A stretch of DNA of 36,529 nucleotides from Bacteroidales bacterium (lineage in GTDB: Bacteria; Bacteroidota; Bacteroidia; Bacteroidales; G3-4614): NCBI GenBank assembly GCA_017935575.1, contig JAGBHI010000017.1, positions 1-36,529 of the forward strand. The letters run 5' to 3'. The notes below the pieces were generated by a model. It ran no database searches and was not told the DNA's origin. It was given only the letters and a program-made list of their open reading frames with translations. Below, piece by piece: positions 158-36,529 of this stretch (position 1 is its first letter; each line of letters begins with the position of its first letter). A program made the translations under genes and the position numbers.

Positions 158-913
158 ATGGAAAAATTTTTAGAGAAAAACGAAACTCTGCCCAATGGCT
201 GGCGTGGAGTGGTGGTAAAGAGGCTTACAAAGCATTACCCCGAAAAAAGTTTTGAGACCGACGACGAACTGTTTGAAACGCTTGCAGAGTTTGATGCTCG
301 CTTAGATGAGCGTTTTGAGCGTTTGCGTAACGACCAATGCAAACTTGCAGGAATTTTTAACTCAAATCCGAAAATGGCAGGATTTATCTCTTCGGTTATT
401 GAGGGAGAGGATCCTCTTATTGCCTGTGTCAGATTCTTTGGAGGCGATGTGTTGGAGTGTGCTCATGACGAAAATCGTTTGTCGCAACTTCGTCGCGAGA
501 ACGATGCTTATTTAGAGCGTATGGCTTCTGCCGAAAAATCACGAAAAGAGATTGAGGAGAATTGGAATTTGAGCGAGAAGTCAATAAAACGCTTTAAAGA
601 GGCAAAGGGTATGACCGATGAAGAGTTTGAGCTCTTTATGGAGAAGGTTTGCCACTTGTGCGAGCACGTATTTATGTGCGACTTCAGCTTTGAGATTCTT
701 GATACTCTTTTCAAAGGTGTGAACTACGACACCGATGTTGATATTGCCGAGCAAACCGGAGAGGTTAAAGGTCGCAATCAGAGAATTATTTTTGATAAAG
801 AGCATAACTCCGATGCTGATGTCTCTCCATCATCTTTCTCAAAAGAGGAGAGCAACGATAATCTTACTCCTATGTTTGGTTTACGTCGCAGAAAAAGTGT
901 CTGGGACTTATAA
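158..913 (+). CDS. Probable capsid scaffold protein (phage)
   Basis: A 251-residue soluble protein, rich in Glu, Lys and Arg, lies directly before the major capsid gene, the usual place of a scaffold. Predicted coiled-coil or helical stretches run from about residue 40 to 60 and from 105 to 165. The last 40 residues are Ser/Asp-rich and end in a basic patch (LRRRKSVWDL), which resembles the capsid-binding tails of phage scaffolds. No enzyme motif is seen. The ATG at 158 is the first in frame after the promoter motif. The assignment rests on position, length and composition; I do not recognise a named family. It could instead be a minor head protein. Confidence 0.55.
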   Translation: MEKFLEKNETLPNGWRGVVVKRLTKHYPEKSFETDDELFETLAEFDARLDERFERLRNDQCKLAGIFNSNPKMAGFISSVIEGEDPLIACVRFFGGDVLECAHDENRLSQLRRENDAYLERMASAEKSRKEIEENWNLSEKSIKRFKEAKGMTDEEFELFMEKVCHLCEHVFMCDFSFEILDTLFKGVNYDTDVDIAEQTGEVKGRNQRIIFDKEHNSDADVSPSSFSKEESNDNLTPMFGLRRRKSVWDL

Positions 914-918
914 TTTAA

Positions 919-1036
919 GTTTTTAGTTGTTGGTTTTCAACGTCGTTGCCCCTTCGGGGTAGTTTTTAGTTGCAACTTCGTATCTCTTATACAACTTATT
1001 AGCCCATGGGCTAATAATACTACCAACTAACAACTG
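919..1036. repeat. Modular palindromic repeat between scaffold and capsid genes
   Basis: The 185-bp gap begins with AGTTTTTAGTTGTTGG (919-934) and the CCCC-TTC-GGGG mini-hairpin (949-959). A second AGTTTTTAGTTG follows at 961-972. A perfect 22-bp palindrome centred on AGCCCATGGGCT occupies 996-1017, and the module ends with CTAACAACT near 1027-1035. The first 50 bp match the modules at 21336-21386 and 30191-30241. The remaining gap to 1099 is AT-rich with no clear promoter. Confidence 0.7.
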
Positions 1037-1098
1037 TTTAAAAAAAATCACATCACAAACAGCTTCTTAATTATTAATTATTTAAACACTATTTTATT

Positions 1099-2487
1099 AT
1101 GAAAAAGATTTTGAATTTTATTAAAGAAAATCAAATTTGGGTTTTATTGGCTCTTTTTGTTATTGCCCTTGTGGTAATGTATGTTTCAAATTGTTCGCTT
1201 TATGCGTTGGCAGCTGTTATTCCGGCTGTAAGTACAGGAAAAATTGTTACGGGCGAACCTCTTACTCGCGACTTGGCTACGCGTAACAGTTCTGACCTCA
1301 TAAAGAGCGAGATTGATAAGCGTATAACAAAGATACGCCCTATGTCAACTCCTATTGACCAACTTTCGCGTTGGGCCGGTGCCAGAAAAGCAAACTCAAT
1401 GGTAGTTGATTACTACTCTGTTGATATTAAACCTACAAAGGCGGTTTTGAGTGTTGCTTATACCGAACCTACATCTGATACGGTTACTTCTGCTGCTCAA
1501 AAGGTTACTATAAGTACAAGTAATAATGATATTTTTGAGGTGTCTGAGACTATCCTTGTTCAAGGTGTAAAGGGGTATGAAAACGACGGAGTTACTCCAT
1601 CTAAGTCTGATTTGGTTCTTTACATAACAAGTAAAGAGGAGAACGGCAACTTGAATGTCTATGCTATTAATGGTAAAAAGATTGGTTCGGTTGAGAAGTG
1701 TGTTCCTTCAATCCCTGCTTCAAAAACTTTGATACGAATGGGACGTGCGGCAACCGAGTTAGATGTTCAAACTGCTCAGTTTGAGGCTTTGCCTGTTAAG
1801 GAACAAAACAACTGCCAAATTTTTAAAATACAAGTTGAGCAATCTACTTTCCAAAAAATTGCAGCCAAAAATGTGCCTTGGGATTTTTCAGATTCTGAGG
1901 AGGCTGCTATTTACGATATGCGTTTGGGTATGGAGAAGACCTTTATGTTTGGCGTCAAAAATACCCTTTACGACTCTCGTAAAAAAGAGAACGTTATGCT
2001 TACCGGCGGTATTTGGTGGCAAGCAGGTAAGGAGTATGAGTTTGACGCCTCAAAGGAGCTTACTCAAAACGACCTTATTGATATGATGAAAGAGGCATTT
2101 ACCGGTAATGGTGGTAATAAACGTAAAGTGCTTATTGGAGGTAGCGACTTTATCGGTCGTATCAATAAACTTGATGTAACTAAGGTTATAAGTGCTGACG
2201 ATGAGTATGTTAAGTGGGGTATCGATTTCTCTGAAATTCGCTCAAAATTTGGTAAGTTCTACATCTTGTACTCTGAGGTGTTTGACGATTGCGGTATGAG
2301 CGATTACGGCTTTGCTTTTGACCCTGAGTTTATTACCCGCTGGGCGCATGTACCTTTCGGACATCAAAAACTTGACCTTAAGAGTGCCGGTATCCGCAAC
2401 ACCGATGCTGTGGTTATGACCGAAGCAAGTTGTTTAACTCTTCGTTATCCTGCCGCTCATATGCGTATTGTTCCCAAACAGGGTTAA
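1099..2487 (+). CDS. Phage major capsid protein with an N-terminal membrane segment
   Basis: A 462-residue protein that I place in the HK97-fold major capsid family of Bacteroidota short-tailed phages (DUF5309-like). From about residue 47 the sequence runs GKIVTGEPLTRDLATR, then KIRPMSTPIDQLSRWAG, the usual beginning of such capsid proteins. The C-terminal half has the typical region with KVLIGGSDFIGRINKLD and ends near AAHMRIVPK. What is odd is an extra N-terminus of about 46 residues: basic start MKKILNFIKENQ, a hydrophobic segment at about 13-31, and a second mildly hydrophobic stretch to 45. This predicts membrane attachment or an export-like signal. No internal Met near residue 47 offers an alternative start, so the extension is in frame and probably translated. 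It is downstream of the scaffold gene, as in most phages. Confidence 0.82.
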   Translation: MKKILNFIKENQIWVLLALFVIALVVMYVSNCSLYALAAVIPAVSTGKIVTGEPLTRDLATRNSSDLIKSEIDKRITKIRPMSTPIDQLSRWAGARKANSMVVDYYSVDIKPTKAVLSVAYTEPTSDTVTSAAQKVTISTSNNDIFEVSETILVQGVKGYENDGVTPSKSDLVLYITSKEENGNLNVYAINGKKIGSVEKCVPSIPASKTLIRMGRAATELDVQTAQFEALPVKEQNNCQIFKIQVEQSTFQKIAAKNVPWDFSDSEEAAIYDMRLGMEKTFMFGVKNTLYDSRKKENVMLTGGIWWQAGKEYEFDASKELTQNDLIDMMKEAFTGNGGNKRKVLIGGSDFIGRINKLDVTKVISADDEYVKWGIDFSEIRSKFGKFYILYSEVFDDCGMSDYGFAFDPEFITRWAHVPFGHQKLDLKSAGIRNTDAVVMTEASCLTLRYPAAHMRIVPKQG

Positions 2488-2564
2488 TTCTCTTTCTAAG
2501 GTTGTCGGCTTACGTGCCGACAACTCTTTAGATTATTTATAAATCAAGTTTATAATTATTGTTT

Positions 2565-2945
2565 ATGAAAAGATATAAGACTAATCATGGAAATCTTACG
2601 ACATTTATAAGAGTGGGTGATAAGAATGTGAGAATTAAATTTATTTCGGGTAACAACGTATATGGATATTTTGAAACAGATAATATTGATATTCAGAAGG
2701 CTCTTGAAAAGGATTTGTCTTTTGGGGTAAAATTCTTTCTTGATGATACAGTTCAACAAAAAATAGAGAAGCCATTGAATTCAGATGTGCTCTATGTTAA
2801 TGAGGTAACATCGTGGCAACAGGCAAAAAAATATCTGAATAAAAAACCATATGGCATATTGTATGCCGAGATGAAAACACCTGATGACATCAGGTCTGTG
2901 GCAAATAAATTTAAATTGGTATTCAATAATATTGAGGGTTGGTAG
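2565..2945 (+). CDS. Small phage structural protein, function unknown
   Basis: 126 residues if the ATG at 2565 is used; a TTG two codons earlier is also open. It lies between the capsid and adaptor genes and stops 1 bp before the next start. The N-terminal half looks like a small beta-rich domain (VRIKFISGNNVYGYFETD), followed by IDIQKALEKDLSFGVKFFL, a pattern I associate with small structural proteins of Bacteroides phages. The C-terminal half (VTSWQQAKKYLNKK to the end) looks like a compact helical domain. There is no signal peptide. It could be a decoration, head-completion or assembly protein; nothing in the sequence decides between these. Confidence 0.5.
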   Translation: MKRYKTNHGNLTTFIRVGDKNVRIKFISGNNVYGYFETDNIDIQKALEKDLSFGVKFFLDDTVQQKIEKPLNSDVLYVNEVTSWQQAKKYLNKKPYGILYAEMKTPDDIRSVANKFKLVFNNIEGW

Positions 2946-2946
2946 T

Positions 2947-3576
2947 ATGCTATATAGTAAAGATCTTTTAATTGAACTTGTAAAAATAAATATGCAGGAG
3001 GGCTTTTCGCCTATTGATGCAACATTGGAGCAAGTGTCGGGGCCAAGAATTGGTAGCTACATTGAACAAAAACTACCAGAGGCAATTATGCAGGTTTTTT
3101 GCGATGCACCTGTCTATCTATTGGAGCAGTGTGATGCATCTTCCATTTTGACTCCAAACAAAAATCAAAATGGCAGTGGAGAGGTTATTCTGCCTGATGA
3201 TATGTTACGCTTAACCCTCTTTAAAATGAAGGGTTGGGAGCGTGCCGTAACACGATTTTATCCTGCCGATTCTCCTACTGCAGAACTTCAAACAAATGTT
3301 TATACTATGGCAGGTAGGGCAAAGCCTGTAGCGATACTCTCTTTATCTCATGAAGGTGAGAGAGTCTTAAAATATTACTCTTTACCACCGGAGGTTCAAA
3401 ATCATGAAATAGAAGATGCCCTTTATGTGAAAATTCCTGATATCTCAAAGCCTATTGAGATTAATGAACTGCTTCTGCCCTCAATTACCTATTTGACAGC
3501 TGCTATGGTTTTTGATATAATGGGCGAAGTGGAGCGTGCTGCTATTATGCGAGCAAATATAACAATCAAACAGTAA
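2947..3576 (+). CDS. Probable head-tail adaptor protein
   Basis: The ATG at 2947, 1 bp after the preceding stop, gives 209 residues; an earlier in-frame ATG at 2884 overlaps the upstream gene and is less likely. Blocks such as LPDDMLRLTLFKMKGWERAV and the later LQTNVYTMAGRAKPVAILS are typical of a conserved protein in short-tailed Bacteroidota phages, where it follows the capsid genes and fits a head-completion or adaptor ring role. The C-terminus (YLTAAMVFDIMGEVERAAIMRANI) looks helical, as in connector proteins. It would sit between the portal, encoded about 22 kb away, and the tail hub. Confidence is moderate because the fold is inferred by position and pattern. Confidence 0.6.
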   Translation: MLYSKDLLIELVKINMQEGFSPIDATLEQVSGPRIGSYIEQKLPEAIMQVFCDAPVYLLEQCDASSILTPNKNQNGSGEVILPDDMLRLTLFKMKGWERAVTRFYPADSPTAELQTNVYTMAGRAKPVAILSLSHEGERVLKYYSLPPEVQNHEIEDALYVKIPDISKPIEINELLLPSITYLTAAMVFDIMGEVERAAIMRANITIKQ

Positions 3577-3582
3577 ACTATT

Positions 3583-6060
3583 ATGAAAAATTCTATTGAT
3601 ATTGATAAAGATAATCGTTTCTTAGGTTATCATTATGGTTTGGGTAAAGTTCTTGCTCAGCCTATTTCTCCTCAACCCGGAATGTTTTTTATAAATGGCG
3701 AAACAAATTCGGTTTGGATGTGGGATAGCTTAACTAAAATGTGGATTGATACAAACCGAGTTGATAGCGGACTAAAGGGTATGCTAACTGATGAGAAAGG
3801 TAATTCTCCTGCTGATTTTGTGCCGTCTCAAAAAGTTGGAGTAAAGGAGAGCTATTTTTATGTTGCCAAAACAGATATTGCAAAGGATTTTGTTTTTACT
3901 CATTTTAAGAATGGGAATGATTCTGTTAGTGTAAATGTATTGTCAACTTCTATTGTTGTTCTTTATTGGAATGGCACTTACTGGGAGAAATCTCTTGTTC
4001 CAATGAATATCAATTTGAAAGAACTTGCCAAAGAGTCTGATTTAAGGGCAGAGATAGATAGAGCTTCTAAAAATGATGCAACTTTTGAGACCTATATTAA
4101 TGGCTCGGAGGATAGCTTTTCAACCTCTTTTGTTACTACTTATTCTGGAAGAGATCTTCCTTATGTTATTCCTGAAGGTTCTGTAATATATTTAAGTGGT
4201 GATATCACAGAGATATTGGCTTATTCTGATAAAAATTCAGAGGTTTATAGCGTAGTTAAAAATGGAGATATTGCCGATAGAGATATTACATATATAAAAA
4301 ATAGGTCGGAACTTGGCAATCTGACACTCTCTTTTGCTTATAAAGGAATAATCCCGGAGATAAAAGATGCGAATAAAAGATTGACATCAGCCGAGAATAA
4401 TTTGGGTGATTTAGGTTCTGTTATTTATGGCGGGAGCAAAGATTATAATTTAAATATTATTACCTCTCCTGCTTATATTGATCTTCAAGAGCGTGTAACG
4501 GGATATTTTAAAGGTTACAAGGTCGATTTATCTCAATATGTAGGTAAATATGACAAAGTCTATTTCCGAGGAGCAGAGTGGGATTATCCTTCTGATGGTT
4601 CTCATATTACACGAGGATTAATATTGGATAAAGATGGTAATATTGAAGCTATTGCACCATTCGTGTCAGAAAGGAGTAATGGTTGGCAATCTTTACCTAT
4701 TACTGAAAACTCTAAGACCTTATGGGCTACATATTGTACTAAGCCTGAGGGAGGGGAAGTTTGGAATCCTGAATATGTTTTGATGCAAAGTGAGGGTATT
4801 GAAGGTATTGTCTCAACCGTTGAAAAGTTAGATAATGGTGTAGATGTTATTCTCCCCTCTGATATATATATTCTTAAAGGTAGGGTGTCGCAGCTATTTT
4901 TTAGAGGATTCATAAGATCTTCATCACCTTATAAATATGATATAAAGGTATTGTGCGATATAGGCAAAACTTTCTCTCGTTATTATGAGATTGATGATAA
5001 AGAGGGTGTTATTGCAGAGGGAGATTATCCAATTAAGATTGTGGTAAGAAATGATAAATTGAAAGTGTTAGGTATAGCAGAAGCAACCATTCATCTTATT
5101 TCTCAAACCTCAATAAAATCTCCGTTAAATGTTTTATGTGTTGGGGATAGTACAGCCGTATCGGGTGATTGGGTTGCTGAATTGAGGAGAATGATTAATG
5201 ATGATAATTTGAACTTTGTTGGGCGTAAAGAGGGTAATGCTGAGAGTGTAAAATTAGAAGCGACAGGAGGTTGGAGCTGGAATAGTTTTATAACTCCTCA
5301 AAATGATGCAATAAGATTTGATATCTCTAATTGTATAGGTACACCAACTAAAGGAGGTGTGCTATCTATTGGAAGTTCAAAATATACTATAATAGAGATA
5401 AATCTTACCGAAGGCTCCGGTAATATATTGTGTTCAGGAGTAGTTCCAACGCAAAGTTCAGGAGTATTGATAGGTGAGAATATTGAAATGACTTATACCT
5501 CTTGTCAAACCGAGAAATTTGCTCCATTTTATAATAATGGCAAAATTGATTTTAAGTATTATGCCGATAACTATTGTAATGGTAATATAGATATAATGGT
5601 TGTTCATTTGGGAGTAAATAATTCATTATGGGAGGACTCAGATACAGACTACTCTATTGCTCAAGCTAAAAAGTTTATTGAGGGATATTTTGTTGATTTC
5701 CCAAATGGCAAGATGATTGTATCGGCTATTCCTATGCCCGATGATGGTATAAATGTATATGCAAACTCTTATGACGATAATAATATTAATCGTTACGGAA
5801 CAATCTTCTCTTTCTTGAGATATAATAAAGCATTATATGATTTGGTGGAGGGGTTAAAGAGCAAATACAATATCAGTTATGCTCCAACAAATATCTTTTT
5901 TGATACTGATTATGGCTATCCCAAAACTCATAAGAGTGTAAATACTCGTGTTACAGATTACAAAGAGATGATTGGCATAAACGGAGTACACCCTACGCAA
6001 AAAGGATATTATATGTTTGCCGACGGAATAGCTCCTGTATTCTCTAAAATGGTTGTTTAA
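3583..6060 (+). CDS. Tail fibre or spike with C-terminal SGNH esterase domain
   Basis: 825 residues, the largest protein of the cluster. The N-terminal part (about 1-150) resembles a virion-attachment region and carries tail-fibre-like phrases (GETNSVWMWDSLTKMWIDT). The middle (about 150-510) is beta-rich with repeated glycan-binding-like segments. The C-terminal part is an SGNH/GDSL hydrolase: nucleophile block GDST at about 521-524, the LGVNNS block at about 675-680, and NGVHPTQKGYY near 800-810 with the catalytic-type His. The Asp usual in the last block (DxxH) is Asn here, so catalysis may use another acid or be weak. Such domains deacetylate surface polysaccharides, so a role in recognising or trimming the capsule of a target cell is inferred. 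It follows the adaptor gene by 6 bp. Confidence 0.72.
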   Translation: MKNSIDIDKDNRFLGYHYGLGKVLAQPISPQPGMFFINGETNSVWMWDSLTKMWIDTNRVDSGLKGMLTDEKGNSPADFVPSQKVGVKESYFYVAKTDIAKDFVFTHFKNGNDSVSVNVLSTSIVVLYWNGTYWEKSLVPMNINLKELAKESDLRAEIDRASKNDATFETYINGSEDSFSTSFVTTYSGRDLPYVIPEGSVIYLSGDITEILAYSDKNSEVYSVVKNGDIADRDITYIKNRSELGNLTLSFAYKGIIPEIKDANKRLTSAENNLGDLGSVIYGGSKDYNLNIITSPAYIDLQERVTGYFKGYKVDLSQYVGKYDKVYFRGAEWDYPSDGSHITRGLILDKDGNIEAIAPFVSERSNGWQSLPITENSKTLWATYCTKPEGGEVWNPEYVLMQSEGIEGIVSTVEKLDNGVDVILPSDIYILKGRVSQLFFRGFIRSSSPYKYDIKVLCDIGKTFSRYYEIDDKEGVIAEGDYPIKIVVRNDKLKVLGIAEATIHLISQTSIKSPLNVLCVGDSTAVSGDWVAELRRMINDDNLNFVGRKEGNAESVKLEATGGWSWNSFITPQNDAIRFDISNCIGTPTKGGVLSIGSSKYTIIEINLTEGSGNILCSGVVPTQSSGVLIGENIEMTYTSCQTEKFAPFYNNGKIDFKYYADNYCNGNIDIMVVHLGVNNSLWEDSDTDYSIAQAKKFIEGYFVDFPNGKMIVSAIPMPDDGINVYANSYDDNNINRYGTIFSFLRYNKALYDLVEGLKSKYNISYAPTNIFFDTDYGYPKTHKSVNTRVTDYKEMIGINGVHPTQKGYYMFADGIAPVFSKMVV

Positions 6061-6079
6061 CAATTAAATATTTAAAATT

Positions 6080-6808
6080 ATGACAGACTTTAATCCTACA
6101 ATAACGCCAATGGTATATACAAAAAGCGATGTAGATGCTATTATTAAAAACAAATTGCAAGAGAACCTTATAAGTTGGAATGCCTCTTTTAATATTGATA
6201 ATATTATTAAGCAAGGAATTTATTATATAAGCGGAGAGAGAATATCATTTACAGATAATCTTCCTATATTGAATACAGGGTATATAAGCGGACAAATTAC
6301 CGTGTTAGATGCTAATGGCTGTATTACTCAATATTTGAAACTAACCAATGCAGGTGGTAGTGAGGGTAAAGAGTATATCCGTACCTATACAAGTGGTAGT
6401 TGGAGTACTTGGAGGGAGTTGCAAAGCACAACTGTGTTTAACAATGGTATTGATGATGCGAGTTTGAAGAATTATGAGGATAACGGCTACTACACAGGTG
6501 CTATACTTAATACAATAGGTTCGGCTACAGGTTCGGATTTGTCAAACTTATATCAAATAACAGAAGCATTCAAGGTTGATATTAAAACCTCAAAGGGTTA
6601 TGCTCACTTACCCTCAGGTACTTTCTTTACAATGAAAGTGATGAATAACTATGCTGTAGTAAAAGCATCGCAAAGTTGGGGTGCATCGGCATTTCATACC
6701 ATCACCCAAAAAGCGGATATTCAATTATGGGACGGAACATTCCTTTGCGTACAACGTAGCAGAATAGCGGATAGGGGTTGGACTAATTGGAAAATAATAA
6801 ATATATAA
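6080..6808 (+). CDS. Tail fibre-like protein with pyocin-knob repeats
   Basis: 242 residues. An N-terminal 40 residues with a short helix (YTKSDVDAIIKNKLQ) precede two pyocin-knob-like units. The first has GKEYIRTYTSGSWSTWRELQ at about 95-115, and the second ends with QRSRIADRGWTNWKIINI at the C-terminus. This W-x-x-W motif is common in receptor-binding tips of tailed phages and tailocins. It starts 19 bp after the esterase fibre gene and probably makes a second, or accessory, receptor-binding protein of the same particle. There is no signal peptide, as expected for a virion component. Confidence 0.65.
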   Translation: MTDFNPTITPMVYTKSDVDAIIKNKLQENLISWNASFNIDNIIKQGIYYISGERISFTDNLPILNTGYISGQITVLDANGCITQYLKLTNAGGSEGKEYIRTYTSGSWSTWRELQSTTVFNNGIDDASLKNYEDNGYYTGAILNTIGSATGSDLSNLYQITEAFKVDIKTSKGYAHLPSGTFFTMKVMNNYAVVKASQSWGASAFHTITQKADIQLWDGTFLCVQRSRIADRGWTNWKIINI

Positions 6809-6813
6809 CAATT

Positions 6814-7197
6814 ATGAATTGGGGAGATATAGTAACCGTAGTAAGTACGGTTCTTGCCTCGTTGGGCGGATTTGAGTTTATGAAATGGCTTTTTACTCGA
6901 AGAAGCAATAAGAGAATTGCTGCTGCACAAGCCAATTCAAAAGAGATTGAAGTTGAAACCGATGAGTTTCATCTGTTACGTGAGAGATTGGAGTTGTCAG
7001 ATAGGCAACTCCTTGAAAAAGAGCAAAGATTTTATGAGCAGACGTTGTTGGTGCGAAAGCTCAATAAACAGTTGCTTGAAAAAACGAATGAGAATGGTGC
7101 TCTGTCGGCACGAATAAGCTCATTGGAAGCCGAGCGTGCCATGAAGCTTTGTGAGCGACGTGGCTGTGAACGACGAGAACCTCAAAGCGGATATTAA
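6814..7197 (+). CDS. Membrane-anchored coiled-coil phage protein (holin/spanin-like)
   Basis: The ATG at 6814 gives 127 residues; an upstream ATG at 6787 overlaps the previous gene. One membrane segment (about 5-25) is followed by a basic turn (FTRRSNKR) and a long charged coiled coil (about 35-108). The tail carries two cysteines in CERRGCERREPQ. This plan is common in proteins next to lysis genes of Bacteroides phages. It fits an inner-membrane spanin or a holin accessory, but no function is proven. The gene is followed by a lone repeat half-unit and the DUF5675 gene, so it belongs to the lysis end of the cluster. Confidence 0.55.
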   Translation: MNWGDIVTVVSTVLASLGGFEFMKWLFTRRSNKRIAAAQANSKEIEVETDEFHLLRERLELSDRQLLEKEQRFYEQTLLVRKLNKQLLEKTNENGALSARISSLEAERAMKLCERRGCERREPQSGY

Positions 7198-7201
7198 TAT
7201 A

Positions 7202-7217
7202 GTTTTTAGTTGTTAGA
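7202..7217 (+). repeat. Solo repeat half-unit AGTTTTTAGTTGTTAG
   Basis: Sixteen bases identical to the start of the module at 30191-30206 and nearly identical to those at 919 and 21336. It occupies nearly the whole 21-bp gap between two lysis-region genes and ends 1 bp before the ATG at 7219. Confidence 0.6.
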
Positions 7218-7218
7218 G

Positions 7219-7650
7219 ATGGAGATAAAGGTAAAACGATTATACATTAAAGAGGAGTACACCATTGGCAAAATGTATATCAATGGTATGTGCTTCTGTG
7301 ATACTTTAGAGGATAAAGTGAGAGACCTTAATAAAGATGGCGATTTAAGTGATAATGGCGAAGGTAAGGTTTATGCCCAAACAGCTATTCCTTATGGTAA
7401 ATATAAAGTTATTGTCTCTTTCTCCCCCAAATTTAAACGCATGTTGCCAAGATTATTAGATGTTCCTCACTTTGAAGGTATTCTTATTCATCGGGGTAAT
7501 ACTGCTAAAGATAGTGCCGGTTGTATATTGGTCGGAGAAAATAGGGTAAAAGGTCAGCTCTTAAATTCTACTCCATACGAAAAGAGGTTAATCGCCATCT
7601 GTCTTAATGCCCAATTGCAGAATGAAGATATAACAATTGAAATATGTTAG
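7219..7650 (+). CDS. DUF5675 family protein, probable lysis enzyme or accessory
   Basis: The ATG at 7219 gives 143 residues; a TTG three codons earlier is open but lies in the repeat. The hallmark of DUF5675 is visible: early FCDTLED, a turn IPYGKYKV, and a core with IHRGNTAKDSAGCILVG in which His (about residue 91) and Cys (about 101) are conserved. This His/Cys arrangement resembles the active site of L,D-transpeptidase-like folds, so a peptidoglycan-acting role is often supposed, but this is inference. It lies between a membrane coiled-coil protein and a candidate spanin, where an endolysin would be expected, and no classical lysozyme is seen in the window. Confidence 0.72.
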   Translation: MEIKVKRLYIKEEYTIGKMYINGMCFCDTLEDKVRDLNKDGDLSDNGEGKVYAQTAIPYGKYKVIVSFSPKFKRMLPRLLDVPHFEGILIHRGNTAKDSAGCILVGENRVKGQLLNSTPYEKRLIAICLNAQLQNEDITIEIC

Positions 7651-7656
7651 ATTAAT

Positions 7657-8076
7657 ATGAGACTGAAATATAACAGATATATTATGCTTAGTTTGAGTAT
7701 GGTAGTCGTGTTAATCGCTTTTTATGGTTGCTCTGTAAAAAAGAGTCTGAAAAGTGTGAGTGATACGATATATATTACTCAAAATAGAGAGATTAAAAGA
7801 GTGATTAAAGATACTCTTAGAGATACGACAATAGTATTGGAATATATTCCCGATAGTGTGGGGGAGTGGAAAGTATCAAAAAAGACTGTAACAACGAGGG
7901 TTAAAAATCTTTCGGGTAAAGAAGAGAAGATTATGTCGGAAGAGATACAAAAACAGGAAACCAAAACATTATCTGAAACTAAAAACCGAGGTGATAATAA
8001 AAAGTGGATATGGCTTTTTGCAGGAGTTTTAATATATCTTGCTATTACTGTTATCTTATTGATAAGGTTCAGATAA
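7657..8076 (+). CDS. Candidate unimolecular spanin (lipoprotein signal plus C-terminal membrane segment)
   Basis: 139 residues. The N-terminus is a signal-like hydrophobic stretch (about 9-24) ending in FYGC, a degenerate lipobox with Cys25. The middle is a charged periplasmic region of about 85 residues that may be extended or beta-rich. The C-terminus has a second hydrophobic helix (about 117-137, KWIWLFAGVLIYLAITVILLI) and a basic end. An outer-membrane lipid anchor plus an inner-membrane helix in one short protein is the plan of u-spanins such as phage T1 gp11, which fuse the two membranes at lysis. It is the last gene of the phage cluster and starts 6 bp after the DUF5675 gene. The function is inferred from topology only. 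Confidence 0.55.
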   Translation: MRLKYNRYIMLSLSMVVVLIAFYGCSVKKSLKSVSDTIYITQNREIKRVIKDTLRDTTIVLEYIPDSVGEWKVSKKTVTTRVKNLSGKEEKIMSEEIQKQETKTLSETKNRGDNKKWIWLFAGVLIYLAITVILLIRFR

Positions 8077-21446: not shown

Positions 21447-22661
21447 ATGGATATTGACAAAATAAGAGAAGAATTTCCAATATTAGCACAAGAGGTATAT
21501 AAAAAGCCCCTTGTATATCTTGATAATGCAGCTACAACCCAAAAGCCAAAAGTTGTGATAGATGCAATATCAAATGCCTATTGCACCATAAATGCCAATG
21601 TGCATAGGGGAGTTCACCATTTGAGTCAGCTATCAACCGAAGGACACGAAGGCGGGCGCGAAAGAGTTCGTCAGTTCATAAATGCAAAATCGACAAAAGA
21701 GATAATATTTACTCGCGGAACAACCGAAAGCATAAATCTTGTAGCATCATCATTTGGCGAGGCATTCTTAAATGAGGGAGATGAAGTTATAATCTCTGCA
21801 ATGGAACACCACTCGAACATAGTGCCATGGCAGATGTTGGAGAGTAAAAAGGGTATAAAGCTAAGGGTAATACCCATAACCCCAAATGGAGAATTAGATA
21901 TAGATGCATTCCGTAAACTCTTAAATGAGCGAACAAAATTGATATCTGTTGCACACGTATCAAACGTATTGGGAACAATAAACCCCATAAAGGATATAGT
22001 TGAGGAGGCTCACAAGATAAATGTTCCCGTGCTTGTTGATGGAGCGCAAGGAGCGCCACATATAAAAATAGATGTGCAGGCTTTAGATGTTGACTTCTAT
22101 GTCTTTTCAGGGCATAAAATGTATGCACCAACAGGTATAGGAGTGTTGTACGGAAAAGAGAAGTGGCTTGAAGCTATGCCCCCTTACCAAGGCGGAGGAG
22201 AGATGATAGCAAAAGTAACTTTTGAAAAAACCACATTTAACGAACTCCCATTTAAATTTGAGGCAGGAACCCCCGACTACGTAGGGGTAATGGCAATGAC
22301 TGCTGCACTTGACTATATTGAGAATGTAGGAATAGAAAATATTGCAGCACACGAAACCGGGTTATTGCAATATACAACCTCAAAACTTAGTGAGATAGAA
22401 GGAATAACAATCTATGGCAATGCCACTCATAAAAGCGGAGTAATATCATTTAATGTAGATGGCATACACCCATACGATATAGGAATGTTATTAGATAAAC
22501 AGGGAGTAGCTGTCCGCACAGGACACCTATGTGCCCAACCTCTTATGGATTTGCTCGGCATACCCGGAGTGGTGCGAGCATCGTTTGCACTATACAATAC
22601 ACACGAGGAGTGCGATAAATTTATAGTAGCACTACAGCGAGCAATAGAAATTTGCAGGTAA
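21447..22661 (+). CDS. sufS: Cysteine desulfurase SufS
   Basis: 404 residues, a PLP enzyme of group II. It removes sulfur from cysteine and holds it as a persulfide for SufBCD. The family marks are LDNAATTQKP (about 24-33), the His in EHHSNIVPW, the PLP lysine in SGHKMYAPTGIG (about 221-232), and the active-site Cys in RTGHLCAQPLMD (about 357-368). It is the last suf gene here. A SufE or SufU partner is not found next to it, where the convergent phage hub gene lies instead. Confidence 0.95.
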   Translation: MDIDKIREEFPILAQEVYKKPLVYLDNAATTQKPKVVIDAISNAYCTINANVHRGVHHLSQLSTEGHEGGRERVRQFINAKSTKEIIFTRGTTESINLVASSFGEAFLNEGDEVIISAMEHHSNIVPWQMLESKKGIKLRVIPITPNGELDIDAFRKLLNERTKLISVAHVSNVLGTINPIKDIVEEAHKINVPVLVDGAQGAPHIKIDVQALDVDFYVFSGHKMYAPTGIGVLYGKEKWLEAMPPYQGGGEMIAKVTFEKTTFNELPFKFEAGTPDYVGVMAMTAALDYIENVGIENIAAHETGLLQYTTSKLSEIEGITIYGNATHKSGVISFNVDGIHPYDIGMLLDKQGVAVRTGHLCAQPLMDLLGIPGVVRASFALYNTHEECDKFIVALQRAIEICR

Positions 22662-22676
22662 ATATCTTTTAAATTT

Positions 22677-22709
22677 GGGACTGTGTTAACTTTTTGAATG
22701 CACAGTCCC
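22677..22709. terminator. Hairpin between sufS and the phage hub gene
   Basis: GGGACTGTG (22677-22685) pairs perfectly with CACAGTCCC (22701-22709) across a 15-nt loop, placed between two convergent genes. No strong T-tract follows on the plus strand, and the minus-strand tail AAATTTAAAAG is only AT-rich. It is probably a shared terminator. Confidence 0.55.
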
Positions 22710-22732
22710 ACTTGTCTATAGTAATATCAACT

Positions 22733-25345
22733 TTAGCTTAAATTTTTATATTTACTCTCAAATACCAAATATAATCCATTAAAAGTTAACCCTTCTTTGG
22801 CAATGCCTCCCATCTCAAGACGGAAATATTTGAAAGGTGGAGCAGTTATTGGTATTCTTACACCATCGCAATATGACGAACTTATTACGAATTTGCCAAT
22901 TGAAGTAAAACCTCTATCGGGAAGATTTGAGGCAAGAATATTAATACTCATATTATCTTTAAGAGAATCAATATCTCCTTTCAGAATTATTTCTCTTAAA
23001 TGTTTATATGATATAGGAATTCCTTTTATTGCTCTTGTTCTTAATAAAAATGGTTGAACCGAGTTTTTTACCTCATTTGAATAATTGAATAAAGCCCCTT
23101 CCGAGTCGCAAATATATTGTAGCGGATAGTTGTTTATAAAACCATTTAAAGGAGTATTGGTAAATTGTTGTCTGCTCCACTCTCCTGTATCTAAATTTAA
23201 AGAGAAGATATAGCTATATCCGTTTTTTAAAAATAGTACTTCATTCCCATTATAGTTGTAGCCTGCTTGTGAGGTTGAGATAAACTCTTTAAAGTTGTTT
23301 AAGTATTCTTGATTTGATACAATAATGTTATTCTCTCCTTCAATGCTAATATCTTTAATAATATCGTCTCTATTTAGCCCAAAAGCCGATATCATAGCTG
23401 TTTCACTACCGTTAAGAATATGTATCCCTTTTGTTGAGACAAAAACAATAGCTTTATCAATAGATGTTATACTTTTGCTTGATATGGCAATATCTCGGCT
23501 TATAGGGAGTGTTGAGCTATAAACTATGCCATTGTCGCCTTGTTGCATTGTCCAAATACCATCTTCACAAAATACGTATAGAGGAAACTCTCCATACCTG
23601 CCTTGTGATAACTCTTTTGTTACGGTAGCAATTTTAATAATCTTTGAGTTTGAAATAGTATAACTTTGCTCTTGAGGGAAAAATATTGGATTTTCAATCT
23701 TTGAAACTTTAATCATATTCGGGAAAGATTCATAGCAGAACCTATCTCCAACAGGAATATCTTCATTATAAATTTGAGGCTCTATTGCAGAGAAATCCGA
23801 TTTTAAATAGTATGCACAGTTTTCAACCTCCGATGCTGTAAGAGGCAGAGATATGTAGTAATTATTACCATTATCCTCTTTGAACCAAAGTTCCATCTTT
23901 ATAGCTCTACTATCGGGATACGATATATATGGCGATATATATCCGCTATTGCCAACAATACTATCTTTTTCAACTGCAAATATTCCTGTAGTTGTATTAA
24001 TTTCTACTCTAATATGACATTGCATCTGAGGCTTAAGTGAAAATTCGGGAGTAATATTGTTGTAACTCTTTTGTTCTGTATTAAAAGAGAACAAACTGAA
24101 TGGGAGTGGTAAGTATCTGCGAATTCCACCCAAATGTAACATTGAATTATATGTGTGTGTTACAGCTCCTGATATTCTATAATGAGAATAATTATCAATG
24201 GGTAAAATCTCTTGTGTTGCAAGGTTCTCTAACTCAAAATCAATATTAACCTCTCTTAAATTACTTTCGGGGTATAAATTATCATCTCTCAAATCAGATA
24301 ATTTATAAGATGCAATCTTGAAAAATAGAGTCTCTTCCGTAACTCTCTTCTGTAGTTCCTCATCATTTAGGTAGTCGCATTTCATATCTACATCAAAACA
24401 ACTTAAATTATCTCCTGCAGCTGATACGTCTTTAATAAAAGATAAACCCCTTTTAGGATCGTTACCCATCAGGAATATGGGTTTAGAAATAAAAATATCA
24501 ATACTACTTATAATATCGTCCCACTCTTTAGATGGTACTGAGGCTGTATCAAACATAAGAGAGTATATATTCTCATTGTAATAAAAGTATGGGATATATG
24601 CCGTTTCAGTATTAGAATAAATTTTCAGTGTATGCATTTCCCATCCTCTTAAACTATAATTGGGTATCATAAGAATTGGAGCTGAAGGTTTAATATATGT
24701 ACCGTCGTATAACTTTAGTGCATATCTGACCATAAAAGGCAATGCAAATTTTTTTGCTTTAGAGGCAGAGATATTTACTTCGTTATATTTGCTATAGATA
24801 TATTCAATTAATCTATTATGGTTTGATACTTTAACAGCAATATCACCAAACATGGTTTCGGGTAGATAAATATTTCTATCCATTAAGTTTATGTTGGTAT
24901 GTTCATTAAGAGAAAATCTTATATCGGGAGTCTCTATATCCCCCATATAGCTATATCTGTTTTTATAAAACAGAGCATAATAACAGCCATTTTCGCAAAT
25001 TATGATAAGTATATTTCCTATACTCTCAAATTGAATAACATTTTTAATTGCAGCAATAAGTTGCGGTTCTGAAATTGCCGAATTGTCAATAATACTTCCT
25101 TCCCAATATACCCCATCGTTATTATATGATATTATGTTTGAGTAATTCATATTTTTATGGATATATTGACATACTCGTTTCTCTGAATTTTTGTTTAAGA
25201 GTTTTGCCGGAGTGCCACATACTTCTAAAGCTCCATTTCTCTTTTTAAAATTAACCATATCGCAACACTCTCCATCGTTGCAAATTTCGGAAGGGCACAT
25301 CTTTGAGATGCCCGATAAAACAATCTCCTTGCATATCTTTTCCAT
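22733..25345 (-). CDS. Phage tail hub protein, beta-propeller-like
   Basis: The start is taken at 25345 (MEKICKEIVLSGISK), giving 870 residues; an ATG ten codons earlier would lie across the promoter motif. The N-terminus, with a cysteine-containing stretch (CPSEICNDGECCDMVNF) and then NGALEVCGTPAKLL, follows the plan of podovirus tail hub proteins such as P22 gp10, which open with a list of local parameters. Beta-rich blade-like repeats occupy the middle and later parts (for example VFCEDGIWTMQQGDNG, then AIVFVSTKGIHILNG). The C-terminus has HLREIILKGD and a final domain ending in FNGLYLVFESKYKN, again hub-like. The similarity is architectural and no alignment was run. It is very AT-rich, convergent with sufS and divergent from the portal gene. 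Confidence 0.55.
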   Translation of the reverse strand: MEKICKEIVLSGISKMCPSEICNDGECCDMVNFKKRNGALEVCGTPAKLLNKNSEKRVCQYIHKNMNYSNIISYNNDGVYWEGSIIDNSAISEPQLIAAIKNVIQFESIGNILIIICENGCYYALFYKNRYSYMGDIETPDIRFSLNEHTNINLMDRNIYLPETMFGDIAVKVSNHNRLIEYIYSKYNEVNISASKAKKFALPFMVRYALKLYDGTYIKPSAPILMIPNYSLRGWEMHTLKIYSNTETAYIPYFYYNENIYSLMFDTASVPSKEWDDIISSIDIFISKPIFLMGNDPKRGLSFIKDVSAAGDNLSCFDVDMKCDYLNDEELQKRVTEETLFFKIASYKLSDLRDDNLYPESNLREVNIDFELENLATQEILPIDNYSHYRISGAVTHTYNSMLHLGGIRRYLPLPFSLFSFNTEQKSYNNITPEFSLKPQMQCHIRVEINTTTGIFAVEKDSIVGNSGYISPYISYPDSRAIKMELWFKEDNGNNYYISLPLTASEVENCAYYLKSDFSAIEPQIYNEDIPVGDRFCYESFPNMIKVSKIENPIFFPQEQSYTISNSKIIKIATVTKELSQGRYGEFPLYVFCEDGIWTMQQGDNGIVYSSTLPISRDIAISSKSITSIDKAIVFVSTKGIHILNGSETAMISAFGLNRDDIIKDISIEGENNIIVSNQEYLNNFKEFISTSQAGYNYNGNEVLFLKNGYSYIFSLNLDTGEWSRQQFTNTPLNGFINNYPLQYICDSEGALFNYSNEVKNSVQPFLLRTRAIKGIPISYKHLREIILKGDIDSLKDNMSINILASNLPDRGFTSIGKFVISSSYCDGVRIPITAPPFKYFRLEMGGIAKEGLTFNGLYLVFESKYKNLS

Positions 25346-25365
25346 AATTATAAAATTAAATATTA

Positions 25366-25414
25366 TACGATGCAAAACTATTAAGGTGATATATGTGTGT
25401 AATGTTATAAATAG
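25366..25414 (-). promoter_or_regulatory. Phage-locus promoter motif, copy 2 (tail hub)
   Basis: Read on the minus strand: CTATTTATAACA (25414-25403), 26 bp, then TTTGCATCGTA (25376-25366). It matches the portal copy at 20 of 23 motif positions with identical spacing. The -7 box is TAGTTTTG (25380-25373), a full match to TAnnTTTG. It ends 20 bp before the start codon at 25345. Confidence 0.7.
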
Positions 25415-25437
25415 GTAAATAATCTAAATCACAAATC

Positions 25438-25486
25438 ATATTTATACCATATGAGGAGCAGAATATTTGGGTTCATTTGCATTGTA
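25438..25486 (+). promoter_or_regulatory. Phage-locus promoter motif, copy 3 (portal)
   Basis: ATATTTATACCA (25438-25449), 26 bp, then TTTGCATTGTA (25476-25486), ending 32 bp before the portal ATG. It differs from the scaffold copy at a single motif position. Its upstream box is separated by 23 bp from the upstream box of the divergent hub copy, so the two face away from each other. Confidence 0.72.
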
Positions 25487-25518
25487 ATTCAATACAAATT
25501 TTAAACACCTAATTTATT

Positions 25519-27408
25519 ATGAAAAGTAAAAAATTGGTAGATTATCGCTATTTTAACAACAAATCGTTGCTCCCAAAGCAAACAGGTAAAGAGAATACAT
25601 CTCCGTTGAGCCATTTTAAAATTGATAGTAGCGGAACGCTTGATATGGCCTCAAAGGCGTGGAGTAATTTGCATGATTATCGTTATTTGCGCCGTCGTAA
25701 TCGCGACTATGCCTTTGGTCGCCAATGGAATGATAAAATAACTCTCTCTGATGGTAGAGTAGTTACCGAAGAGCAGTATCTTAAAGAACAAGGTAAAGTT
25801 CCGTTAAAAAACAATCTTATACGACAACTTATAAAAAATGTGGTAGGACAATTTCGTTCAGCACAGACACAACCCGTATGTGTGGCTCGTGATCGCACCG
25901 AACAGCAATTAGGGGAGGTTTTGAGTGGAGCGGTGGAGTATGTGCATCAGCATAACCGATTATGGGAGTTAGATGGCAGAACATTAGAAGAGTTCTTGAT
26001 ATCAGGTAGTTGTGCTCATAAAATAGTATATGGAACGCGAAACGGTAAAAGTGATATATGGATTGATGATGTAGCCCCCTCACGAATATTCTTTAACAGC
26101 ATGAACGATGTTAGACAGTGGGATTGCTCCTTGATAGGCGAGTTGCACGATATGCCGATAGCAGATTTGTTATCGCGTTATGCAAAAGGTAATAGAAAAA
26201 GGGCGTTGGAACTACGTAAAATATATGGAGAAGTTAAAGACTCGGATTTCCAAAATGAGATTACATCATTAACAACCGACAATGCAGATAATGTCGATTT
26301 TTATGTAGCATCTTCAGGCAATATGTGTCGTGTAATAGAGGTTTGGCGATACGAAAGCAGAGAACGATTAAGGTGCCATGACACCCTTGATGGCTCAGTA
26401 TATAAAGCCGAAATAGATACATTAGAAAATATTGAACAAGAAAATGCTCGTCGAATAAAAGAGGCTTCAAAGCAAGGAGTAAAAAGAGAAGATGTGCCTC
26501 TGATAAATTCAGAGTGGTTTGTTGATAAGGTATGGTATTATCGTTATCTGTCGCCTTTGGGACACATACTTGACGAAGGTGAAACTCCATATTGGCACGC
26601 ATCTCACCCATATGCATTAAAACTCTACCCTCTTATTGATGGAGAGGTACATGCCTTTGTTGAAGATGTAATAGATCAGCAACGTTATATAAACCGTCTA
26701 ATAACAATGGTCGATTTTATAATGGGTTCAAGTGCCAAAGGTGTGTTGCTTTTTCCTGAGGATCAAATACCAGAAGGAATGACTATTGAAGATGTCGCAG
26801 AGGAGTGGACACGATATAACGGAGTAATAATGTATCGTCCACGTCCCGGAGTACCTCAACCGCAACAAATTTCGGTAAATGCAACCAATGTAGGAGCATA
26901 CGAATTATTGAATATGCAGATGCGACTTTTTGAGGATATTTCAGGAGTGCACGGAGCAATTCAAGGAAAAACAGCTCCTTCCGGTACGCCCTATGCCCTG
27001 TATGCGCAACAAATACAAAATTCTTCGCTTAATCTCATTGACCTGTTTGAAAGTTTCAAATGCTTTAGGGTTGACCGTGATACCAAAATAGTAAAAACAA
27101 TACAGCAATACTATACTATTGAGCGATATAAGAAGATAGTGGGAGAGGAGCAGCAGAACATATTGAAAAATATAGGAGAAGAAGATGTTAAGAATGCCGA
27201 ATTTGATATAACAATAACCGAATCGGTATCGTCGCCCGTTTATCGTATAGCTTCAAATGAGTTCCTATTAGAGCTTTTCCGTATGGGACAGATTGATCTC
27301 AAAACTTTGTTGGAAAATGGCTCATTCCCCTTTGCTGACAAATTATTGCAAAGTTTGCCGCACAACAATAATATTTTTTTTGTTATAGGTTATGATTGGG
27401 CTAATTAG
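25519..27408 (+). CDS. Phage portal protein (short-tailed phage type)
   Basis: 629 residues, in the normal range for podovirus-type portals. The N-terminal part has RYLRRRNRDYAFGRQWND and then PLKNNLIRQLIKNVVGQFRS, the usual clip/wing entry. The conserved core includes WIDDVAPSRIFFNSMNDVRQWDCS (here from about 180, split as WIDDVAPSRIFF and NSMNDVRQWDC), YPLIDGEVHAFVEDVIDQQR (about 371-390), and the crown-side helix SGVHGAIQGKTAPSGTPYAL (about 475-494). It would form the 12-mer through which DNA enters the head. The neighbours are a divergent tail hub gene and, downstream, a secreted-protein gene; no terminase, scaffold or capsid gene is next to it. The stop codon lies inside an inverted repeat, so the C-terminal end may be altered. 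Confidence 0.85.
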   Translation: MKSKKLVDYRYFNNKSLLPKQTGKENTSPLSHFKIDSSGTLDMASKAWSNLHDYRYLRRRNRDYAFGRQWNDKITLSDGRVVTEEQYLKEQGKVPLKNNLIRQLIKNVVGQFRSAQTQPVCVARDRTEQQLGEVLSGAVEYVHQHNRLWELDGRTLEEFLISGSCAHKIVYGTRNGKSDIWIDDVAPSRIFFNSMNDVRQWDCSLIGELHDMPIADLLSRYAKGNRKRALELRKIYGEVKDSDFQNEITSLTTDNADNVDFYVASSGNMCRVIEVWRYESRERLRCHDTLDGSVYKAEIDTLENIEQENARRIKEASKQGVKREDVPLINSEWFVDKVWYYRYLSPLGHILDEGETPYWHASHPYALKLYPLIDGEVHAFVEDVIDQQRYINRLITMVDFIMGSSAKGVLLFPEDQIPEGMTIEDVAEEWTRYNGVIMYRPRPGVPQPQQISVNATNVGAYELLNMQMRLFEDISGVHGAIQGKTAPSGTPYALYAQQIQNSSLNLIDLFESFKCFRVDRDTKIVKTIQQYYTIERYKKIVGEEQQNILKNIGEEDVKNAEFDITITESVSSPVYRIASNEFLLELFRMGQIDLKTLLENGSFPFADKLLQSLPHNNNIFFVIGYDWAN

Positions 27409-35216: not shown

Positions 35217-36110
35217 TTATTGGTAAAGAGTTCGGTATTGCACCGGACTCTTTCCTTTTAGTCTTAGTTTTATCCTATCGTTATTGTAGTAGTGGATATA
35301 CTTCTTCAGTTCTTGTTTGAAGTGTTCCATATCTTTAAATTGTTGCAAATATAGCAATTCAGATTTCATAATTCCAAAGAAGTTCTCCATCATTGCATTG
35401 TCAAGACAGTTACCTTTACGTGACATACTTTGTATAATACCATTACGTTTCAGTGCTAATTGGTATTGCATATGCTGATAATGCCAGCCCTGATCAGAGT
35501 GCAATATAAGACCATTCTTGGGTTTTACTTTCTTTATCGCATCGTTTAACATATTCATCACCATACGCAAATCAGGACTGTTAGATATTGTGTATGAGAC
35601 AATCTCTCCATTATACATATCAAGTATTGGTGATAGATATGCTTTTCTTTCTCCTATCTTAAACTCCGTTACATCAGTTGCCCATTTGCGATTAGGTGCT
35701 TGCACTGTAAAATCACGCTCCAATACATTTGCAGCAACACGACCAACCTCGCCTTTGTATGAACGGTATTTTACTCTGCGGACAACTGATTTAAGGTGCA
35801 TTTCCTGCATCAGTTTCTGCACAGTCTTGTGGTTAATTATGTGCCCTTCATTTCGCAGTTGGATACATACCCGCCGATAGCCGTAACGCTTATGGTGCTG
35901 CGTAAATATCGCGCTTATACGATTACGTATATCTGCGTATTTGTCGGTCTGTTGCCTTGAGATATGATAATAGTACGTTGAACGTGCGATACCTACACAC
36001 CTTAAAGCGAACAGCAAATCACTCTGTTGTAGCCTTAGTTCTTGGATTGCCCCCGCCCAATCGCGCGCAGACGGGCTTCTCTCTCCTCGACTAAGGCTTT
36101 CACTTTTTTT
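35217..36110 (-). CDS. IS3-family transposase OrfB (DDE integrase), read by -1 frameshift
   Basis: From about residue 30 the frame runs through a helix-turn-helix-like region (ARSTYYYH), HTH_21 (HHKRYGYRRVCIQLRNEG), then the rve catalytic core: first Asp in RKWATDVTEFKIG, second Asp in LILHSDQGWHYQ, and Glu in CLDNAMMENFFGIMKSELL. The DDE triad is complete. The 5' part lacks its own good start codon: the frame is open back to the A7 run at 36104-36110, so the protein is expected as an OrfAB fusion. A TTG at 36017 could serve as an independent start but is less likely. Confidence 0.85.
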   Translation of the reverse strand, partial: KKSESLSRGERSPSARDWAGAIQELRLQQSDLLFALRCVGIARSTYYYHISRQQTDKYADIRNRISAIFTQHHKRYGYRRVCIQLRNEGHIINHKTVQKLMQEMHLKSVVRRVKYRSYKGEVGRVAANVLERDFTVQAPNRKWATDVTEFKIGERKAYLSPILDMYNGEIVSYTISNSPDLRMVMNMLNDAIKKVKPKNGLILHSDQGWHYQHMQYQLALKRNGIIQSMSRKGNCLDNAMMENFFGIMKSELLYLQQFKDMEHFKQELKKYIHYYNNDRIKLRLKGKSPVQYRTLYQ

Positions 36111-36529
36111 AGCAGGGCATTCTCTATTTTGAGTTCCCGATTTTCCCTTTGAAGACGTTCAAGTTCTGTTTCCGGCTTCTGTACTTTCTTTGGTCTTCCC
36201 ATAGCTTTTGGTCGGCCTCGTTTTTTGGTTATTGACAGAGCTTCAATGCCACCTTGCCTATAGGTTCTTAACCATACATTCAAACGGCTGGCACTTACTC
36301 TGTACTTTATTGAGGCTTGCACCAAAGATATACCATTGTTCTCAATATCCAATACAACTTTATGTCTAAAATCTGCATTACTGCGAGTGTACGCTTGACG
36401 ATGAAGAGCTTTTGCTCCTTCTCTCTGGTATAATAGCCATAATTTTTTTAGTTGCTCTCCATTTATCCCATAAGTGGTATGGATGTAACTGATGGAATAA
36501 CCTTCTTTAAGCATATGCATATATTTTAG
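36035..36529 (-). CDS. IS3-family OrfA (helix-turn-helix), 5' end outside the window
   Basis: At least 161 residues from the ATG at 36520; the frame stays open upstream to the edge of the window, so the real N-terminus is probably missing. Two helix-turn-helix units are visible (HMLKEGYSISYIHTTYGING and GISLVQASIKYRVSASRLNV), followed by a basic linker and a C-terminal leucine zipper (ETELERLQRENRELKIENAL) used for OrfA/OrfAB dimerisation. It binds the terminal repeats. Confidence 0.8.
   Translation of the reverse strand, partial: LKYMHMLKEGYSISYIHTTYGINGEQLKKLWLLYQREGAKALHRQAYTRSNADFRHKVVLDIENNGISLVQASIKYRVSASRLNVWLRTYRQGGIEALSITKKRGRPKAMGRPKKVQKPETELERLQRENRELKIENALLKKVKALVEEREARLRAIGRGQSKN
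36104..36110 (-). other. A7 slippery site for -1 programmed frameshift
   Basis: On the minus strand the codons CTA AAA AAA GTG contain a run of seven A. A -1 shift here leads to AGT GAA AGC, the frame of OrfB, which is open from this point to 35217. This matches the usual IS3 mechanism. Confidence 0.8.

Follow-up and report, generated by a model that had tools for sequence, protein, structure and literature searches.

The usual view of tailed phages is that their shells form in the cytoplasm from soluble subunits. A tie to the membrane is described for phage T4, whose heads begin on the inner membrane via the portal (PMC5694885). For the Porphyromonas gingivalis 'Nixviridae', a signal peptide has been remarked on the major capsid proteins (MCPs) and a prohead protease is named as the likely cutter (PMC10367356). 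Gene transfer agents (GTAs) were found in a survey of the gut mainly in Ruminococcaceae and Oscillospiraceae (PMC12946183). In the open-licence literature, we found no report that links rhomboids with phage capsids and no report of a Bacteroidota GTA.

The window, which is the whole stretch of DNA analysed here (36,529 nucleotides from a Bacteroidales bacterium), contains the genes collected in Table 1. The ORF that starts at the ATG at position 1099 is open over 462 residues, and its product matches Pfam SU10_MCP over residues 66–457 (E 1.5e-46; 159.7 bits against a curated cut-off of 24.1). The AlphaFold2 model consists of a helix (residues 12–37), a stretch of low confidence (residues 34–71) and an HK97-type capsid domain, and Foldseek matches the model to the capsids of phage VP1 (3.2e-17), phicrAss001 and SU10. 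A PDB profile match (VP1, 9in6) is limited to part of the capsid core. By Pfam family, fold and gene context, the ORF encodes an HK97-fold, SU10-type MCP. Its match to phrog_26635 spans residues 15–457, so the hydrophobic part lies already within that phage family. With moderate confidence, and jointly with the membrane reading given below, we assign it to a podovirus-like lineage of Bacteroidales phages whose MCPs carry an N-terminal signal-anchor.

Table 1. Phage-related features of the window, with positions, strand and the basis of each assignment.
Feature	Position	Strand	Basis or remark
Probable scaffold; gene directly upstream of the MCP gene in phages and most chromosomal copies	158..913	+	phrog_22323
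Major capsid protein, SU10_MCP family, HK97 fold, phrog_26635	1099..2487	+	Pfam, PHROGs, profile, AlphaFold2, Foldseek
N-terminal extension of the MCP, residues 1-47	1099..1239	+	basic start, hydrophobic helix about 12-37, A-L-A / A-V-I-P junction
Small conserved gene after the MCP gene	2565..2945	+	phrog_23743
Connector/head-completion-like gene, putative role	2884..3576	+	phrog_22135
Tail/receptor-type protein	3583..6060	+	weak GDSL-lipase similarity, E 0.02
Tail-fibre-like protein	6080..6808	+	phrog_3971
Putative lysis cassette: holin-like membrane protein, DUF5675 protein, spanin-like protein	6787..8076	+	putative roles
Virion structural protein, homologue of BKO1-TP3 gp34	22733..25375	-	phrog_32516
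P22-type portal protein, 23 kb from the MCP gene across housekeeping genes	25519..27408	+	Pfam, PHROGs, profile

The translation of the MCP gene begins MKKILNFIKENQIWVLLALFVIALVVMYVSNCSLYALAAVIPAVSTGKIVTGEPLT, and G47 is the first residue of GKIVTGEPLT. Ahead of GKIVTGEPLT lie MKKILNFIKENQIW and then the hydrophobic stretch VLLALFVIALVVMYV, and the protein runs from a basic start through a hydrophobic helix (about 25 residues) and a flexible linker to the capsid domain. The ORF, the hydropathy and the AlphaFold2 helix all bear out the earlier note, which had described an extension with a basic start and a strong hydrophobic segment ahead of GKIVTGEPLT. In six close relatives, the frame of the extension is unbroken and synonymous sites are near saturation (pS 0.61–0.89 versus the window), with pN/pS versus the window of 0.35–0.46 for residues 1–46 and 0.05–0.07 for the capsid core. 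These comparisons indicate that the extension is under coding constraint and not a product of chance, and they exclude a frameshift or a fusion of two frames; with the frame intact in all six relatives, the extension does not stem from a frame-fusing sequencing error, which had been named as a possible refutation.

The residue letters of the extension drift and its hydropathy and flanking charge are retained, as in signal peptides and anchors. Among 90 non-redundant relatives, the best 19-residue hydropathy of the N-terminal part has medians of 2.02–2.14, versus a median of 0.96 and a maximum of 1.57 elsewhere in the same proteins, and the charge before the segment is more positive than the charge after it in 89. 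The window MCP has the layout of a Sec signal peptide, with a basic n-region, a hydrophobic h-region and A36-L37-A38 as c-region, export and cleavage being predictions from this layout. A lipoprotein anchor was rejected as a general feature, since the window has V-S-N-C in place of the lipobox [LVI][ASTVI][GAS]C and L-S-G-C is present in few relatives only (L022, L024 and L026).

A scan of genome contigs recovered 37 Bacteroidales MCP loci with 48–90% identity; across the order, 22 of the 295 genomes searched contain the MCP. Nearly all chromosomal relatives begin with the basic start, followed by the hydrophobic segment, and their junction is made of small residues (ALAAVIPG, for example). 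The extension is also present in three sequenced Bacteroides temperate phages (PQ571269, PQ571277 and PQ571263) and in dozens of IMG/VR phage contigs; across Bacteroidales chromosomes, temperate phages and IMG/VR contigs, it is carried by all but two of the relatives that could be checked. These two, L062 and L063, are the only relatives that begin directly at the capsid part, and their small clusters, flanked by host genes, contain hardly more than MCP, connector and portal. Residue 47 is therefore not the normal start of the family, as had been supposed; the extension is the rule in phages and chromosomes alike. On a quick tree with a midpoint root and some long branches, the segment needs one change of state, most simply ancestral presence and a single loss in a reduced chromosomal lineage. 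Because true phages share the extension and the loss sits in reduced chromosomal clusters, tree and distribution indicate that it is ancestral, and the suggestion that it could be a domestication trait falls. In the same tree, the IMG/VR entries L070–L074 cluster with the chromosomal copies and not with the phages.

In the sequenced phages, a small opposite-strand gene upstream of the MCP gene matches the Pfam rhomboid family PF01694 above cut-off (5.5e-8 and 2.6e-5). It sits between the small conserved gene phrog_27246, which its position suggests to be the small terminase gene, and the large terminase gene. A single rhomboid match is found in each of 42 of 49 phage records, and in all 39 IMG/VR contigs measured it is divergent from the MCP gene and located upstream, at a median distance of 1610 bp (range 1455–2280) from the MCP match. 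The seven negative records comprise chromosomal-type or short pieces (G582–G585), a record cut at a contig edge (G597), one with a disrupted frame (G590) and one below the Pfam threshold that was recovered with a family-specific profile (G625; L146). The rhomboid frame looks broken in phage contig L081, which may reflect an assembly error. The active-site residues H50, H55, N59, G104, S106 and H148 are invariant in 46 non-redundant copies; furthermore, a profile search finds GlpG (E 7.7e-11), and GlpG is the best Foldseek match of the AlphaFold2 model (pLDDT 94.5). Sequence and model, in which the GxS serine, the HxxxN motif, the catalytic histidine and the fold are all found, point to a small rhomboid with intact catalytic residues that is apparently active.

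No PHROG family matched the phage rhomboid, tblastn with one copy retrieved two records only in 50,697 phage genomes, and single-protein searches of viral contigs and an alignment-based rhomboid search returned nothing. The chromosomal MCP copies have no linked rhomboid, the host's own rhomboid being found elsewhere only, and the clusters of L062 and L063, whose MCPs lack the segment, also lack a rhomboid.

The segment of the phage MCPs ends in GASSGVMMA[DAN]ASxLPDAG (consensus GASSGVMMAxAxxLPDAG), with an agreement of about 80–98% at the V, A, A, L, P, D, A and G positions and A-x-A right before the conserved LPDAG in 43 of 52 proteins. This phage-type motif is present in 43 of the 51 rhomboid-linked MCPs versus 2 of the 39 others, one of which comes from the phage contig with the broken-looking rhomboid frame. 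The chromosomal MCPs retain the segment without the phage motif and without a linked rhomboid. On the tree, rhomboid presence and MCP motif take two changes and track a single deep split, so that the correlation does not consist of many independent events. Linkage and motif association make the rhomboid the most likely candidate for cutting the MCP; it shares a divergent operon with the terminase, and could have another substrate.

The shared membrane segment and the neighbouring intramembrane protease suggest that these shells may be built at the membrane and then cut free. Specifically, the MCP would be made as a membrane-tethered precursor that is held at the inner membrane with its basic N-terminus inside, and the segment would be cut after the hydrophobic helix, releasing for head assembly a mature shell protein that begins near the linker. 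In free phages, the most likely cutter would be the rhomboid, whose gene lies at a distance of 1.5–2.3 kb. It would act on the GASSGVMMAxA motif or close by, and GASSG, a run of small residues where the helix ends, is a possible cut site. In chromosomal copies, which have no linked rhomboid, the cut may be made by host signal peptidase I at the A-x-A site or by a host rhomboid. We judge the chances evenly balanced that a tethered precursor is cut free in this manner, with the rhomboid as cutter in phages and a host protease in chromosomal copies. Membrane insertion, topology, cleavage, the identity of the protease and assembly at the membrane are what we infer from the sequence patterns above. 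In this orientation, a signal-anchor of the classical kind would carry the capsid domain across into the periplasm, and it is difficult to see how DNA could be packaged there; translocation must therefore be limited somehow, or the orientation be unusual. Association with the membrane and subsequent removal of the segment, both of them in line with the earlier note, stays the best reading, which we would credit about halfway, but not in its role there as a domestication trait.

Alternatively, the segment could be an analogue of a scaffold-like delta-domain that acts in the prohead by self-association or scaffold binding and never enters the membrane; a cytoplasmic maturation protease would remove it, or it would be kept, and the rhomboid would serve, for example, lysis or modification of the host membrane. 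HK97-type MCPs often have N-terminal assembly domains that are later removed, in keeping with such a role. The signal-peptide-bearing Porphyromonas phage MCPs, in addition, are suggested to be prohead-protease substrates (PMC10367356). However, no prohead protease family match was found among the ten element proteins tested (Pfam, PHROGs), the hydropathy of the segment is membrane-grade and its N-flank positive, and the conserved motif follows the presence of an intramembrane protease. We consider the delta-domain analogue unlikely. A cut by host signal peptidase I through the Sec route, and not by a rhomboid, in phages and chromosomal copies alike, with the MCP partly exported, appears less likely again. 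The tripartite layout, the frequent A-x-A before LPDAG in phages and the A-L-A-like junctions in many chromosomal MCPs are consistent with it, whereas the conservation of GASSGVMM and LPDAG far exceeds what signal peptidase needs, and cytoplasmic filling with DNA would be impossible for a capsid protein that is exported in full.

The MCP gene of the window lies among host genes. Downstream of the head-tail-lysis module (158–8076) lie tonB/exbD/exbB, pdxJ and nadK, and the portal and virion genes (22733–27408) have sufS on one side and, on the other, a CotH-type gene with rplU after it. In the window genome, contig C88 (about 21650–23620) carries the large terminase gene along with virion-protein genes. 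All 22 MCP-bearing genomes have portal and terminase homologues, mostly one each, and G313, G424 and G520 among them hold or also hold phage-type clusters. In the single-contig genomes G546 and G579, portal and terminase are in separate loci. The Walker and nuclease motifs of the terminase are invariant, including in the copy of the window genome, and all 8 genomes of the host family carry the MCP. No autonomous replication or integration genes were recognised among the neighbours of the loci read, as compared with the reference set only. Across the 22 genomes, head, portal and terminase genes are dispersed over several chromosomal loci and vertically inherited. The window gene is part of this dispersed set, which is mostly single-copy and similar in make-up to a gene transfer agent. 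We regard the set as a candidate GTA, known here from its genes; any transfer of DNA would be a prediction from them.

An ordinary decaying prophage remnant, with an MCP that is functionless in this host, would accord with the position of the genes amid housekeeping genes and with a cluster that showed no recognisable gene for an integrase, a repressor or replication. We consider this highly improbable, given the low pN/pS of the capsid core, the presence of the MCP throughout the host family, the portal and terminase homologues in every MCP-bearing genome and the intact terminase motifs.

PF03237 found no terminase in own-genus genomes or phages. The supposedly missing terminase is the phage gene annotated 'tail spike': these genes of the Bacteroides TP phages (L038:7820-9934, L039:1-927) are large terminases by PHROGs, as tested on L038 and its homologue L213. 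A giant phage gene, tried as a hidden terminase, was rejected, its product being a polyvalent protein of 5,553 residues (PQ571269 42666-59327; L069:2667-19328) that adjoins the portal and has ddrB-ParB, InPase, LPD38 and SNF2 helicase domains. The locus L213 itself (G424, contig C32) has tail, portal, terminase, scaffold and MCP genes in one contiguous cluster, in which the membrane segment is present and a rhomboid is absent. Its genome has the dispersed set as well, and the cluster is possibly near the ancestor of the chromosomal type. Very reduced MCP-connector-portal clusters lie among host genes, with the terminase elsewhere, in G523 (L210) and G318 (L211); in one search, the G318 portal was flagged for four in-frame TGA codons. 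The window itself carries a 22-base repeat, 91% identical, at 17–38 and 1009–1030, upstream of the scaffold gene and of the MCP gene, and the contig ends with two transposase genes that look IS3-like (35217–36520). An Rfam scan of the window gave no matches.

The start site of the MCP bears on whether the segment is made at all. The earlier claim that no start codon exists at the junction holds for ATG and GTG but not for TTG, which encodes L37 (1207–1209), though it is not conserved as a start: in 36 chromosomal relatives, the aligned codon is TTG in 7, CTG in 7, CTT in 5, TTT in 4 and others in the rest. The A+T content of the 20 bases upstream averages 78% for annotated starts versus 40% for the phage internal codon. 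Translation from L37 in the window, or from the ATG in the phage VMMA motif (an ATG lies near the junction in 46 of 48 phage MCPs), giving an MCP without the extension or in two forms, is very unlikely, as the chromosomal relatives have no conserved start codon at the junction, the upstream A+T favours the annotated starts and the extension evolves like coding sequence. The coding constraint and the upstream A+T together argue that the extension is probably translated, as first proposed.

Tentatively, we suggest a phage lineage whose membrane-tethered MCP is freed by a phage rhomboid and whose domesticated, dispersed descendants form an undescribed GTA-like system across several Bacteroidales families that has kept the tether and not the protease; as a whole, this picture is possible rather than probable. 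An anchor on every shell protein of the lineage, together with a fixed intramembrane protease with an intact active site, points to a different route of assembly and maturation and, if true, to capsid maturation that uses an intramembrane protease. Isolates of the phage lineage exist (BKO1-TP3, BS-TP4 and BF1-TP2). With a dispersed and conserved set of head, portal and terminase genes in gut Bacteroidales, GTA-like systems would reach into a phylum in which we found none described in the open-licence literature.

Compared with the known systems, the window lineage has the fold and the Pfam SU10_MCP domain in common with the MCPs of SU10-type phages, VP1 and phicrAss001, and adds an N-terminal signal-anchor. 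MCP signal peptides were known before, and the rhomboid link is new as far as the open-licence literature shows: the 'Nixviridae' of P. gingivalis have a signal-peptide-like N-terminus on a Bacteroidota phage MCP, a likeness by description, but are predicted siphoviruses with a prohead protease, and the part of the report at hand mentions no rhomboid (PMC10367356). The phage rhomboid shares the fold, the GxSG serine, HxxxN and the catalytic histidine with GlpG-type rhomboids, but is phage-encoded, divergent in sequence and fixed next to a capsid gene. In T4, prohead assembly is tied to the membrane, as proposed here; there the portal ring nucleates, whereas here the shell protein itself would be anchored (PMC5694885). 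Finally, as in RcGTA and the Faecalibacterium FpGTA (PMC12946183), head, portal and terminase genes are conserved in a host lineage over several loci; the set described here, seen as genes, differs in its phage ancestor, with a P22-like portal and an SU10-type MCP, and in its Bacteroidota host.
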